39,397 bases of DNA, taken from assembly GCA_027592785.1 (NCBI GenBank), contig JAQCLD010000033.1, positions 1-39,397 on the forward strand, given 5' to 3'. This stretch comes from Acidobacteriota bacterium (lineage in GTDB: Bacteria > Acidobacteriota > Terriglobia > Bryobacterales > UBA6623). The translations under genes and the position numbers were made by a program. Shown here piece after piece: positions 10,941 through 39,397 of the stretch. How positions within the stretch are numbered: position 1 is the first letter of the stretch; each line of letters begins with the position of its first letter. The notes below the pieces were generated by a model. It worked only from the letters and a program-made list of their open reading frames with translations. It searched no databases and had not been told where the DNA came from.

Positions 10941-10969
10941 CCCGCCTTCAGCTTACGGCTGAATGCGGG
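10941..10969. terminator. hairpin spanning a convergent gene junction
   Basis: CCCGC-C-TTCAGC, loop TTACG, GCTGAA-T-GCGGG: an 11-pair stem with one mismatch. It starts 13 bases after the plus-strand gene. Its loop contains the stop codon (10955-10953) of the minus-strand PepSY gene, so the right arm encodes that protein's last residues. Confidence 0.55.
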
Positions 10970-11528
10970 TAGCGAAAAGAAGTCCGAGGCCGACGAATAA
11001 GCCGATAGATAAGAAGATTCCGCCGAGCACTCGCTCTTTATAGAGGCGGAACCACATGTAGACGCCTGTCGCGCCCAAAGTCAGCAGCGCCAAAGAGGTG
11101 AGAGCAACAAGGGCTGCCCACCAATCGGTAATGCATCGCTCGCGATAGAAGCCCGCTGTATGGTGGAGCCGATTCAACATACCCATGAATCCGGCAACGC
11201 TGGTCTTGACCTGCGCGGTCGGGGATCCGGCAGCATATTCGACGTCATGGGTGGTCCCTGCACGAAGGATGCGAAAACGAAAACCGGCGTCGTCTTGGGC
11301 GACGTTCTGCAATTCACCCCACATGCCGGCCTGCATCAACGCATGAGCGAAGGAGCGCGGGTTTTGGGAGTCGGCGGGGCTGACCGCGACGGTTTGTTCG
11401 CTGACGGTCGGATTATTCGAGAACCATTCGACATGAGACATCTGGACGGCGCTGACTGAGTACATCAGCAGGAACGAGAAGCACAGCAAACCGAGAAACA
11501 GATGGATGTTGCGGATAACGGTGTACAT
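10953..11528 (-). CDS. PepSY-TM half protein (second of a pair)
   Basis: 191 residues: an N-terminal helix with the RNIHLFLGLLCF opening typical of PepSY-associated TM proteins, a periplasmic domain of about 90 residues, then LHHTAGFY and two C-terminal helices (about 135-185). PepSY-TM proteins are linked to iron/siderophore reduction and to control of periplasmic proteases. Usual members are about 350-500 residues with four or more helices; this one is half that size. It begins 6 bases after its paralogue and is surely co-transcribed. Confidence 0.75.
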   Translation of the reverse strand: MYTVIRNIHLFLGLLCFSFLLMYSVSAVQMSHVEWFSNNPTVSEQTVAVSPADSQNPRSFAHALMQAGMWGELQNVAQDDAGFRFRILRAGTTHDVEYAAGSPTAQVKTSVAGFMGMLNRLHHTAGFYRERCITDWWAALVALTSLALLTLGATGVYMWFRLYKERVLGGIFLSIGLFVGLGLLFATRIQP

Positions 11529-11534
11529 GACGGT

Positions 11535-12131
11535 CTAACGCATGAGCCAATACAGCAGGACGAATGCGCCGTTGCCTACCGCGAAGACGGCTCGCGCCCA
11601 AATGAGGTGTGAGCGGGAAGCGAGCCAAAGGACAAGGCCGGAAAGGGCCATAAAGCCCAGCGCCCACAGGCCGGCTTCGTTGTAGTAAGCCCAAGCCTGA
11701 TTGAGAAATCGAGGCGCGGCGTAGCGCAGCACGGCGCCGTGCATGCCGGTGATGAAGCTGGACAGGCCGGCACTTGCACGGACGATCTTCAGCTGGCCCT
11801 GCTGTTCCAAGACGGTGACGGTGCGGACCCCGTTGGGCGTGTAGAAGCTGATGACGAGATTCTGCTCTGCGTCGCGGCGGAGGGCGTAGTCCTCAGCGGG
11901 GCCGCTTAGCGGCAGGTCGAGTTCTTCGTATACGATGTCGGCTAGTTGCTTGTCGCTGACGCTGGTCGGCGCGGTGAACAGCATGAACTGTTCTGTGGTC
12001 GGCGGGGATTGTCTTTCTGACCAAGCCGGGAGGACGGAGTCGATCAACCCCGACAGCCCGTAAACGACCAGTGCGGTAAAGGTAAACAGGCCCGCATACA
12101 TGTGCAGCTTTCTGACTAGAGGCAGGAACAC
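11535..12131 (-). CDS. PepSY-TM half protein (first of a pair)
   Basis: 198 residues with the same plan as the next gene: an N-terminal helix (VRKLHMYAGLFTFTALVVYGLSG), a periplasmic domain of about 90 residues, GMHGAVLRY, then two C-terminal helices ending RAVFAVGNGAFVLLYWLMR. The pair may form a heterodimer equivalent to one full-size PepSY-TM protein. The start is GTG, 7 bases after a TAGCAT box and without a Shine-Dalgarno. Function in metal reduction or protease control is family-level inference. Confidence 0.75.
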   Translation of the reverse strand: MFLPLVRKLHMYAGLFTFTALVVYGLSGLIDSVLPAWSERQSPPTTEQFMLFTAPTSVSDKQLADIVYEELDLPLSGPAEDYALRRDAEQNLVISFYTPNGVRTVTVLEQQGQLKIVRASAGLSSFITGMHGAVLRYAAPRFLNQAWAYYNEAGLWALGFMALSGLVLWLASRSHLIWARAVFAVGNGAFVLLYWLMR

Positions 12132-13875: not shown

Positions 13876-15057
13876 ATGGAGGCCATTGCGGAAAACTGGC
13901 GCGACCTCGACACAGTCTACGATTACTTGCCGGTCGGAGTCATGGCCCTGACCCGCGATCGCCGGGTCACCATTTGGAACCAGCAGATGGAGAGCTGGAG
14001 CGGAGTGGCGCGGTCCAGCATCATCAACCGGAAGCTGGCTGAGCTATTTAGTAGTTTCGACGATGTCAAGTTCTCCGACCAACTGACCGAGGTGTTCGAT
14101 ATTGGGGCTCCCGCAACGCTTTCCGCGCAATTTCATGGGCAGGTGGTTCCGCTGAGCTTGCCCGGCGGCGGTGACAGGATTCAGCAGGCTACGGTCGTAC
14201 CGATACCGGGCACGGACGGCAGTACATGGGCGCTGTTCGCCATACAGGATGTCAGCGATCTGACGCTCCAGGTACAAACCCACCGGGGCATGAAGGCGGG
14301 TTCGGTTCTGGAGACGCATCGGGCGGAAGCAGCCAAGCTCTTGGCTGAGCGCCACAACGAGCAGTTGGCCAAGCTGAAGCGAGACCTCGATCAATTCGCC
14401 TATCTCGCCTCTCACGATCTTCAGGAGCCGTTGCGCACTCTCACTTCGTTCAGCACGTTTCTGCAGGCTGACCTAGGAGCGGATCTTCCCGAAGCCGCCG
14501 CACGGGATCTGGAGCACATCGTTGCAGCGGCGGCGCGGATGCGTCGATTGATCGATGACCTGCTCGCTCTATCCCGCGTCAGCCGGGTGGAAATGTGGTG
14601 GTCGCGGATATCGCTCGAGTCCTGCGTGGCGGATGCCATGAAACCACTGGAACATGGCGCCCAGGAACTCAAGGCGACCATTGTCGGCGCTGAGAATTTG
14701 CCGACCGTGATGGGAGATCACAAGCTGCTGACGCAGGTTTTCCAAAATATGCTGGGCAATGCCATGAAATTCGCGGACACCTCGCGCCCCTGCGTAATTG
14801 AGATCTCCGCGGAACACGATGGCTCCGGATGGGTGATCAAGACGAAAGACAACGGTATCGGCGTAGGTGAGGAGTATCTGACCAAGATCTTTGCCCCGTT
14901 CCAACGACTGCACGGCGCTGACAAGTACCCCGGGAGCGGGATGGGATTAGCCATTTGTGAGCGAGCCATCGAACGGCATGGCGGCGCGGTGTGGGCCATA
15001 CCGAACGAGACTGTTGGAAGTTGTTTCCAGTTCACGCTGCCGGACCGCCAAGATTAG
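13876..15057 (+). CDS. PAS-containing sensor histidine kinase
   Basis: 393 residues without membrane helices. An N-terminal PAS domain (about 12-125; DYLPVGVMALTRDRRVTIWN) leads through a short coiled coil to a HisKA domain (about 165-240) with phospho-accepting His180 in ASHDLQEPLR. The HATPase region has NMLGNAMKFA (N box), KDNGIGVG (G1) and GSGMGLAICERAIERHGG (G2). It resembles phytochrome-type soluble kinases that pair with Rcp1-like receivers, which fits the receiver fragments on both sides. The start ATG follows a G-rich tract (13865-13871). The next gene starts 2 bases after the TAG stop. Confidence 0.88.
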   Translation: MEAIAENWRDLDTVYDYLPVGVMALTRDRRVTIWNQQMESWSGVARSSIINRKLAELFSSFDDVKFSDQLTEVFDIGAPATLSAQFHGQVVPLSLPGGGDRIQQATVVPIPGTDGSTWALFAIQDVSDLTLQVQTHRGMKAGSVLETHRAEAAKLLAERHNEQLAKLKRDLDQFAYLASHDLQEPLRTLTSFSTFLQADLGADLPEAAARDLEHIVAAAARMRRLIDDLLALSRVSRVEMWWSRISLESCVADAMKPLEHGAQELKATIVGAENLPTVMGDHKLLTQVFQNMLGNAMKFADTSRPCVIEISAEHDGSGWVIKTKDNGIGVGEEYLTKIFAPFQRLHGADKYPGSGMGLAICERAIERHGGAVWAIPNETVGSCFQFTLPDRQD

Positions 15058-15059
15058 CC

Positions 15060-15764
15060 ATGATCAGTCACGACCCCAAAGACGCCATTGAGATCGTTCT
15101 GGTGGACGACAACCTGGCGGACCAAGAGATCGCTCGCCGCGTATTCGGATCGCAGGCGAACGTCCGCAAACTGAGCAACCTCTCGGATGGGTACCACTTG
15201 ACCCGCGCGGTGATGCAGGTGCTGGTGGTCGACGACAGCCGCGCCGACTTCGAGATCATTGCCCGTCAACTGGGCGGTGTACAGGAGTTCCGGTCCGAAG
15301 TGGAACATTGTGCGGACGCTTCGGGCTGCTCGAAGGCGTTGACGTCTGAGATCGTTGACTGTGTGCTGCTCGACTACCGGCTTGGCGCAGACTCGGGACT
15401 GGAGGTTCTGGGTCGGATACGAGCCGAAGGCCATGACCACCCGGTGATCATGTTGACGGGGCAAGGCGACGAGCAAACAGCGGTGGGGGCCATGAAGGGC
15501 GGCGCACAAGACTACTTAGTAAAAGACGGCGTCACGAGCGCCGTTCTGGCGCGGTCGATCTCAAACGCAGTGCAGAAGGTGCGCTTGGAGCGCAGCCTGC
15601 GAGAAAAGCAGAATGAACTCGAGGGCTTCGTCTCGGTGGTGGAGCACGATCTGCGTAATCCGGTTTGCTCGGCGCTGGATTCCATCCAGGTCATCGGTGA
15701 GTTTTATGCGGGTAATCCGCTTGATTCCCGCGGACTCGATTTGATCGGCGGGGCCGTGAAATAG
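15060..15764 (+). CDS. receiver/histidine kinase hybrid, N-terminal part before an in-frame TAG
   Basis: 234 residues. It opens with a receiver start (IEIVLVDDNLADQEIARRVF) that collapses after about 30 residues into a short tail. At Met52 a second, complete receiver begins (QVLVVDDSRADFEII) with phospho-acceptor Asp105 (LLDYRLG) and Lys in QDYLVKDG. A HisKA helix follows with His196 (VEHDLRNPV). Translation stops at TAG (15762-15764) in the middle of the dimerisation domain, yet the same frame continues with LQRMSQLIDALLDYAW and the ATPase domain. As it stands the product is a receiver with half a phosphotransfer domain. It is coupled to the upstream kinase gene. Confidence 0.8.
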   Translation: MISHDPKDAIEIVLVDDNLADQEIARRVFGSQANVRKLSNLSDGYHLTRAVMQVLVVDDSRADFEIIARQLGGVQEFRSEVEHCADASGCSKALTSEIVDCVLLDYRLGADSGLEVLGRIRAEGHDHPVIMLTGQGDEQTAVGAMKGGAQDYLVKDGVTSAVLARSISNAVQKVRLERSLREKQNELEGFVSVVEHDLRNPVCSALDSIQVIGEFYAGNPLDSRGLDLIGGAVK

Positions 15765-15773
15765 CTGCAGCGC

Positions 15774-16322
15774 ATGTCGCAGCTGATCGATGCGCTGCTC
15801 GACTACGCCTGGACGGGACGCGACAATGTGCCTCTTGAGACGGTGGATCTGAACCAGGTTGCGGCGGAGGTGGCTGTGGATCTGAGGTCGGTAGTGGAAA
15901 GCAGTCGAGCGTGTCTAGATATAGGAGTTCTACCGGAGATAACCGGCGACCCGGTCGCTCTGCGCCAACTGTTGCAGAACCTCATCGCGAATGCACTGAA
16001 GTTCAGGGGAGAGGCGGACCCGGTCGTATCGGTGGTTTGCGGCGAGAAACCGGATGCATGGGTGCTGTCTGTCACGGACAACGGAATCGGTATCGCTGCC
16101 GAGCATGTCAGGAACATCTTTCAGCCGTTTCAGCGCCTTCATTCGCGCAACGACTTCGATGGTTCTGGACTTGGCTTGGCGACCTGCCAGCGCATCGTCA
16201 CACAACATGGCGGCAAGATCTGGGTGGAGTCGCAGCCCGGCAGCGGGTCGACCTTCCGCTTCACATGCCCGAAGATGGATGCTTTAGCCGAAACCGCAAC
16301 CTGTAGTCGGACGGCAGTTTAG
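15774..16322 (+). CDS. histidine kinase, C-terminal part after the in-frame TAG
   Basis: 182 residues from the first ATG after the TAG; the reading frame is identical to that of the preceding gene. It holds the second helix of the HisKA bundle (MSQLIDALLDYAW) and a full HATPase domain: NLIANALKFRG (N box), TDNGIGIA (G1), FQPFQRLHS and GSGLGLATCQRIVTQHGG (G2). No Shine-Dalgarno precedes the ATG. Either this is the untranslated half of a pseudogene, or the kinase works as two polypeptides or through readthrough. The natural gene would span 15060-16322 (420 residues). Confidence 0.75.
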   Translation: MSQLIDALLDYAWTGRDNVPLETVDLNQVAAEVAVDLRSVVESSRACLDIGVLPEITGDPVALRQLLQNLIANALKFRGEADPVVSVVCGEKPDAWVLSVTDNGIGIAAEHVRNIFQPFQRLHSRNDFDGSGLGLATCQRIVTQHGGKIWVESQPGSGSTFRFTCPKMDALAETATCSRTAV

Positions 16323-16389: not shown

Positions 16390-16979
16390 ATGACGACAAT
16401 TGCTTCCGCTTCAAAAGTCTGTGCCAGGTCTACGGGCCTGTTCCTCGCTGGATTGCTGGTGGGTTCGTTCGGTTCGGCGATGGCAGTTCGCCCAACCCGG
16501 GCATCCTCAAGACGAAGGTAAAACCCGATGATGCGGGAATTTATATCGACGGCGAGTACGCCGGACACGCAGACCGTTTCAATGGGCCTCGCGAAAACCT
16601 GTTTCTAACGCCAGGCGAGCACGAGGTCCGCGTCTCGATGGTGTACTACAAGGACTACACCACCAAGGTGACGATCCAGCCAGGCGAGAAGACGGTGATG
16701 CAGCACAGCATGGCGCCCTCAGGCGAAGCGCATCCCACCGGACCGTTTGGGCGCATCAAAATCAGCCCTCCGAAGAGTGAGTTGAACGCGGCCGTAATAG
16801 TCGACGGCATGCATATAGGCTACGCCGACCAGGTCAACAAGATCGCTCAGACACTGCTGCTACTGCCGGGCGAGCACAAGATCGAACTGCGTTACGCAGG
16901 CTACCAGCCGTACGTGACAACCATCACGGTTGAAGCGAACAAGAAGCAGATTCTCACGCCGACGCTGACGCCGAAGTAG
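16390..16979 (+). pseudogene. secreted two-PEGA-domain protein, frameshifted
   Basis: AGGGG (16381-16385) precedes the ATG at 16390 by 4 bases. The first frame encodes a signal peptide (to about GSFGSAMA, near 16484) and then hits a stop at 16519-16521. One base out of register, the downstream frame reads GSSPNPGILKTKVKPDDAG and continues through two PEGA domains: GIYIDGEYAGHADRF...LTPGEHEVRV and VIVDGMHIGYADQV...LLPGEHKIELRYAGY, ending at the TAG 16977-16979. Loss of one G from a GGG near 16482 would explain it. PEGA domains are cell-surface or periplasmic adhesion and anchoring modules. It may be real damage or a homopolymer sequence error. Confidence 0.75.
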
Positions 16980-37264: not shown

Positions 37265-37678
37265 ATGTGGAACAAAGACGATCAACGCAACGAACCTGTC
37301 GCCGCTACGCCGGCGACGACGCCCCGGCCAGCGCTGTCATAGGGAGGAGGTCAGCCGGCTTACATCGGCAAATCCATCTCGATTGAGGGCACCATCACCG
37401 GGTCGGACGATCTGGTCATCGAAGGCCACGTCAAAGGGTCCATCAAGCTCTCAGACAATATGCTGACCATTGGCGCGAATGGGGTGGTAGAAGCTGACGT
37501 CGAGGCGAAAGAGATACGCGTTCAAGGCAAGCTCAACGGCGCCACCAAGGCTCGTGACCGCATCGAAATCGGTAAGACGGGCTCGGTTGAAGGCGAAGTC
37601 ACGACCAGCAGAATCGCTGTCGAGGACGGAGCTGTGTTCCGGGGGAGCGTAAACATCGCCACCCCGGAAGGCAAATAG
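37265..37678 (+). pseudogene. bactofilin with an in-frame TAG at codon 26
   Basis: The ATG at 37265 (GGAAG 8 bases upstream) begins MWNKDDQRNEP, a start typical of acidobacterial bactofilins, followed by an Ala/Pro-Thr linker. Codon 26 is TAG (37340-37342). The frame then runs on for 111 codons through a full bactofilin core: YIGKSISIEGTITGSDDLVI, GHVKGSIKL, IGANGVVEADVEAKEI, repeated six-residue beta-helix turns and GSVNIATPEGK. Bactofilins polymerise into cytoskeletal filaments. No usable start lies after the TAG before an ATG at 37460, which would remove half the core. The gene is therefore either broken, misread, or read through. Confidence 0.85.
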
Positions 37679-38662: not shown

Positions 38663-39190
38663 TTAATAAACAAAGCGAACGGCGTAAATCGCACCGTCAT
38701 CGCCGAGCAAGACGTCAGCCTCGACAGAGCCCTGCGTATCGGGAAGAAACAACCCATACGCTGCGGGGGCGCTGGAAGGCAACGTGGCTCGAACTAATCT
38801 GCCGCGGCCTGCGGCTAAGTCCGGACTCAAAGGATCCAGGACAAGGAAAGGTGTGTAACGAACAATACGCTCATCCGGCGCCGGCGCCGGCGGCGGCACG
38901 TCGGGTTTGCGCAAGGCGAACCACAGCGAAGGCCCGGCAATCAGAATCAACGCCGCGGCGAGCAGCAGCCATCGACTGGCACTGCGATGAGGCTGCAAGG
39001 CCGCCGCTAGCTGAGGGCTCAATGAGGCCCCGGGCGCATCGTACGAAGGAGTTTCGCCGAGCGCGGCGCCCAGACTTTGTTCGGCGCGGAGCCTGGCGCG
39101 GCAGGCGGCGCAGTTCTCCAGGTGTTGCAGGGCTTCGAGAGACAGCGCGGGGCCGATCATCTCCAGTTGCGTTTGGCGGCAATTCGTCAT
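38663..39190 (-). CDS. zinc-finger (zf-HC2) anti-sigma factor-like membrane protein
   Basis: 175 residues. The N-terminus has Cys4 and the HLENCAACRARL motif (His23, Cys27, Cys30), a zinc-binding anti-sigma domain. One membrane helix (about 72-92) and a periplasmic C-terminal part follow, with FLVLDPLSPDLAAGRGRLVRA and LGDDGAIYAVRFVY. It should hold the ECF sigma factor encoded just upstream until a periplasmic signal releases it. Its ATG overlaps the sigma stop (ATGA), so the pair is translationally coupled. Confidence 0.85.
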   Translation of the reverse strand: MTNCRQTQLEMIGPALSLEALQHLENCAACRARLRAEQSLGAALGETPSYDAPGASLSPQLAAALQPHRSASRWLLLAAALILIAGPSLWFALRKPDVPPPAPAPDERIVRYTPFLVLDPLSPDLAAGRGRLVRATLPSSAPAAYGLFLPDTQGSVEADVLLGDDGAIYAVRFVY

Positions 39191-39397
39191 CTGCGCCTCC
39201 CGGCTCCTTGCTCTAGCAGCGAAGCCTTAACGGGTTGGTTGCGGGATAACTTTTCGAGCAGCAGAGCGCGGGCGCGGTGCAATCGCGAGCGGACGGTCCC
39301 GATAGAGACGTCGAGGACTTCGGAGGCCTTGTCAAGGGCGGAGTAAAAATAGACCAGGGCGGCGCCGGAAAACTAGACCAGCTTGGAGTGGAACGGC
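39187..39397 (-). CDS. ECF sigma factor, C-terminal end, with an in-frame TAG
   Basis: The minus-strand frame ends in TGA (39189-39187), overlapping the anti-sigma ATG. It reads AALVYFYSALDKASEVLDVSIGTVRSRLHRARALLLEKL, i.e. sigma region 4.2 (helix-turn-helix SIGTVRSRLHRARA) that binds the -35 element; the stretch quoted is split over residues in two helices. Further upstream the same frame contains a TAG at 39376-39374, after HSKLV and before FSGAAL. The link between helices of region 4 also seems about three residues short. The window edge is only 21 bases beyond, so edge errors or real decay are both possible. Confidence 0.65.

Follow-up and report, generated by a model that had tools for sequence, protein, structure and literature searches.

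A bactofilin gene copy with an in-frame stop codon in its N-terminal linker in a draft Acidobacteriota genome

Introduction

Near one end of the window, the 39,397-nucleotide stretch of an Acidobacteriota draft genome analyzed here, lies a bactofilin gene copy in which an in-frame TAG stands between the start peptide and the polymerizing core. The arrangement raises the question of whether the core is still produced, by readthrough of the stop or by a restart beyond it, or whether the gene has been cut, either in the cell or only in the assembled sequence.

Structure of the interrupted gene

Translation of 37265–37678 (+) from ATG 37265 gives 25 residues, TAG 37340–37342, 111 residues and a terminal TAG at 37676–37678 (Table 1), which bears out the original prediction that the stop falls in the N-terminal linker and that the complete core after it is intact. 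ATG 37265 is a credible start, since a Met-Trp (MW) pair followed by a charged stretch opens 25 of the 30 bactofilin loci in which the linker was read; this start is missing from six of 12 additional bactofilin copies. An N-terminal membrane-targeting peptide is common, although not universal, in bactofilins, and the short MW-plus-Lys start of the window copy resembles MFSKQAKS, described as the membrane-targeting start of Caulobacter BacA (PMC12448750). Because the TAG is located in the linker, this membrane-targeting-like end is present but parted from the polymerizing core. The peptide had no match of its own in a Pfam search. A C-terminal tail, carried after the core by most relatives, is absent from the window copy, so that it differs from the family both in the stop between start peptide and core and in the lack of a tail.

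Table 1. Features of the interrupted bactofilin copy and of other interrupted genes
Feature	Sequence	Position	Strand	Basis or remark
N-terminal peptide, 25 codons: MWNKDD start (membrane-targeting-like) and Ala/Pro/Thr linker	window	37265..37339	+	Translation; MW start in relatives
In-frame TAG	window	37340..37342	+	Translation
GGGAGGAGG, Shine-Dalgarno-like; in frame, Gly-Gly-Gly after TAG	window	37342..37350	+	Gly-Gly-Arg-Gly there in paralogue
Bactofilin polymerizing core, 111 codons, open	window	37343..37675	+	PF04519; predicted fold and PDB match
First in-frame ATG past TAG, already within core	window	37460..37462	+	Sequence reading
Terminal TAG, same frame	window	37676..37678	+	Translation
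Response-regulator/HisKA/HATPase gene, TAG 15762-15764	window	14991-16322	+	HisKA spans stop when read through; among the 13
PEGA-domain gene, signal peptide and body in different frames	window	16390-16979	+	Sequence
Histidine kinase, two in-frame TAGs	L207	13736-13738, 14201-14203	-	One within HATPase_c, one between GAF and HisKA_3
Peroxiredoxin (AhpC/TSA), TGA at apparent active-site cysteine (FTGG*TREM)	G003 L178	13628-13630	-	Sequence

The core matches PF04519 with an E-value of 8.7e-25 and 87.3 bits (cut-off 27.9) over profile positions 2–97 of 98. Its best predicted model is all-strand with a pLDDT of 92.6, the one good model of five; the remaining four had pLDDT values of 29–40, which is attributed to prediction without an alignment. 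When compared with solved bactofilins, the best model gave TM-scores by query of 0.81 (2n3d), 0.76 (6ria) and 0.70 (6rib). The core is thus a bactofilin by profile and, in the best model, by its predicted beta-helix fold, and it is alike in core sequence, predicted helix and PDB matches to known members such as BacA of Caulobacter and ThBac of Thermus.

An intact paralogue and the divergence of the window copy

The explanation favored here, in which we place no more than even confidence, is that the window copy is the second and faster-evolving of two bactofilins, a dispensable duplicate whose linker is interrupted by a nonsense codon. Translation begun at 37265 would then end after a 25-residue membrane-targeting-like peptide, the polymerizing core would not be made, or only in traces, and the bactofilin of the cell would be supplied by the intact copy. 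The lesion would on this account be real in the cell, no useful restart would follow it and the paralogue would cover the function.

The genome does carry two bactofilins, of which the second, on another contig (C44), is intact and open over 190 codons. The end branch of the window copy in the tree is longer (1.27 versus 0.47 for the paralogue), and among 40 columns invariant in seven relatives it deviates at 12, versus four for the paralogue. A profile of relatives scores the window copy at 153.7 bits and the paralogue at 204.8, although 10 of 41 relatives, left out one by one, score below the window copy, which therefore lies within their range. The two copies pair weakly in the tree (86/59), and the program that built it issued a warning about long branches meeting. 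This also bears on the relative-rate test, which presupposes the pairing and in which three of the five outgroups gave unequal counts (27 v 8, 20 v 6 and 21 v 4), whereas with the other two (18 v 8 and 17 v 13) no significant difference was found. The weak pairing, the long-branch warning, the dependence of the rate test on the pairing, the two outgroups and the profile score all count against a nonsense lesion in a fast-evolving duplicate, as does the fact that the core has acquired neither a second stop nor a frameshift.

Differences between the window copy and the paralogue at codon positions 1, 2 and 3 number 34, 17 and 62 over 108 codons. Their concentration at third positions indicates that the divergence probably built up for the most part under selection and suggests that the stop is young relative to most of it; the pattern fits, without proving, a duplicate under loosened constraint that was recently cut. 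A search of genome contigs for relatives found three loci only, at 34–43% identity, and a synteny attempt comparing four flanking proteins with the retrieved loci gave TPR-repeat matches only.

Interrupted genes elsewhere in the assembly

A search of a 1.6 Mb sample of the genome for stops between two coding stretches in the same frame yielded 90 candidates. Pfam was used to check 32 of these, comprising 30 chosen by eye, and hence not blind, together with two cases from the window; the other 58, which on visual inspection looked like gene boundaries or antisense shadows, were dismissed, and the resulting count is therefore a lower bound. Under the rule that one domain must extend seven or more residues to either side of the stop, a single domain spans the stop in 13 of the 32 (10 TAG, two TGA and one TAA), including a pyruvate-carboxylase-like gene (L113), a GDP-mannose dehydratase and a protein kinase. 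The bactofilin is excluded from the 13 because its TAG lies in the linker. In the L207 histidine kinase (Table 1), a second in-frame TAG is found upstream of the one that cuts a domain.

An ADOP permease with an in-frame TAA (L144) is likely to be a further cut gene, judging by a profile match that stops at 619 of 803, ahead of the TAA; it was left uncounted, its MacB domain passing the stop by three residues only. Another ADOP-family permease of the same genome (L164) scores above cut-off and, as this family is linked to the Acidobacteriota, points to a probable acidobacterial host. The PEGA-domain gene of the window likely carries a single-base frameshift. A coding-potential scan for frameshifts detected none in either this genome or the control and missed the PEGA case too, on which account it was judged too strict and was not used. 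A PepSY pair in the window (10953–12131), considered as a second TAG case, was set aside on translation into two complete adjoining genes.

Two further observations concern frames of unusual form. At the contig end, a Sigma-70 region 4 remnant is encoded at window 39190–39396 (-), with a TAG at 39373–39375 that falls outside the Pfam match. A frame at L125 16407–18257 (-) resembles, by eye, a sugar ABC transporter ATPase, and its first ATG, GTG or TTG is found 132 codons in.

As a control, a related genome in three contigs (G003; 95% complete) was searched over 400 kb, and 20 of its 21 candidates were checked. By the same rule it yielded one spanning case, a TGA in a peroxiredoxin, which is possibly a selenocysteine codon since it is placed where the active-site cysteine would be. 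If this hit is counted, the probability of finding none or one is 0.17; if it is not, the probability of finding none is 0.04. The contrast in cut genes between the two assemblies is suggestive only, and the excess is not firm enough to add weight to a nonsense lesion in the bactofilin. The mixture of stop kinds, together with the frameshift, points to nonsense decay or consensus errors and not to a recoded TAG.

A lesion in the cell or an error in the sequence

The main rival to an ordinary nonsense lesion is a consensus error or a strain mixture in the draft assembly, the living cell having a sense codon and an ordinary full-length bactofilin. We regard this as a real possibility, less probable than the lesion. 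The assembly consists of 203 contigs, is 93.7% complete and 3.1% contaminated, and the bactofilin copy ends 1.7 kb from the end of its contig. Conserved domains elsewhere in the assembly are cut by all three kinds of stop, the signal peptide and body of the PEGA-domain gene lie in different frames, and some cut genes, the pyruvate-carboxylase-like gene among them, are not obvious candidates for loss and are better explained by error. On the other hand, a longer branch, deviations at conserved columns and a missing tail are not products of scattered base errors. A real lesion is favored because the duplicate appears to evolve under relaxed constraint, and an error is favored because the assembly is a draft and a carboxylase is among the cut genes.

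A precedent is provided by Deinococcus radiodurans, whose bactofilin is reported as split into DR_2572 and DR_2573 in the reference of one strain and as one whole gene, KDR_2572m, in strain ATCC 13939K (PMC11219805). As there, one bactofilin gene is found in two pieces; in the present case, however, both pieces lie in the same frame with a TAG between them, and no whole version was found. By analogy, the D. radiodurans case shows that bactofilin splits can differ between sequences.

Reinitiation beyond the stop

A further possibility is that GGGAGGAGG, the purine run past the TAG, recruits a ribosome to ATC 37364 or ATG 37460, yielding a core without its membrane-targeting end. The run is Shine-Dalgarno-like and touches the TAG, the reading frame of the core is uninterrupted and its best model is well folded, and a C. 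crescentus BacA variant without residues 2–8 is described as still polymerizing when overproduced (PMC12448750). The window contains two copies of the run where 0.43 would be expected, and at least two occurrences were found in six of 100 shuffles.

Nevertheless, this reading appears unlikely. In keeping with the original prediction, no usable ATG, GTG or TTG closely follows the run, the in-frame ones lying only at 37460, 37484 and 37634. The ATC that it had proposed at 37361 was misplaced: TAC stands there and the first ATC is at 37364, 13 bases after the run. ATC is a very weak start codon. A start at ATG 37460, 109 bases beyond the run, would lose 39 of the 111 residues of the core. Shine-Dalgarno-like motifs precede only four of the 15 starts listed in the window, and the genome may therefore lean little on them. 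Because the paralogue has Gly-Gly-Arg-Gly at the matching place, the purine run is best read as glycine codons. No relative shows the stop arrangement, the linker being open in all 30 bactofilin loci read. A cryptic restart after the TAG finds no positive evidence at either the ATC or the ATG. RNA folding after the TAG (z -1.84; seven of 200 shuffles fold equally well) was not used as evidence.

A more elaborate version, which we consider more doubtful still, would make the stop and the purine run a termination–reinitiation switch: a 25-residue leader would be released, a little core-only bactofilin would be made from a non-AUG start, and the soluble subunits would enter filaments of the membrane-bound paralogue and modulate them. 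In Proteus mirabilis, CcmA is reported to exist in full-length and shorter forms, the latter arising by proteolytic processing (PMC12448750), which likewise amounts to two N-terminal variants of one bactofilin; however, the short form is described there as keeping a membrane-targeting-like start, which the window core would not.

Readthrough or reassignment of TAG

The least probable of all, and very improbable in itself, is readthrough or reassignment of TAG by this organism. TAG accounts for 10 of the 13 domain-cutting stops against 53–54% expected from codon usage; this surplus, considered as a signal of recoding, was rejected as not significant (P 0.07–0.08), and domains are also cut by TGA and TAA. 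TAG terminates 388 of 783 ORFs of at least 250 codons (101 stretches, 1,605,648 bases) and 20 of the 31 main ORFs of the window, as well as the interrupted bactofilin itself. The genome encodes two members of the RF1/RF2 family, an assignment at family level that does not distinguish RF1 from RF2. Of the 48 tRNA matches that exceed the Rfam cut-off in the 93.7% complete genome, none has a CUA anticodon; ARAGORN named all but three of the anticodons, and visual inspection gave CGT, CGC and ACG for those three. Another three matches scored below the cut-off and lie outside this count. Beside a tRNA-Asp, at L083 96–166 (+), a degenerate tRNA-like match (34.2 bits) uncalled by ARAGORN was also noted. 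For PylS, the genome has matches below cut-off only, and the profile also matches 13 of 14 control genomes, one of them above cut-off.

The 30 bactofilin loci with an open linker comprise 29 from genomes of other genera and the paralogue, and in 12 further copies the stretch before the core is likewise free of stops; a stop conserved at the same place, as would mark readthrough, was found in none of these 42. No stop-interrupted, expressed bactofilin is described in the literature searched, judged from titles and abstract openings. Neither amber recoding nor the suggestion that readthrough would give full-length filaments finds support in the stop usage, the release factors, the tRNA set, the PylS search, the other in-gene stops or the relatives' open linkers.

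Implications

If a core-only bactofilin were indeed made, the cytoskeleton would be regulated by the loss of a membrane anchor at translation, of which nothing here gives evidence. For the nonsense-cut duplicate preferred above, the locus carries a caution of wider use: a lone stop in a draft genome can mimic recoding until the whole genome is checked.
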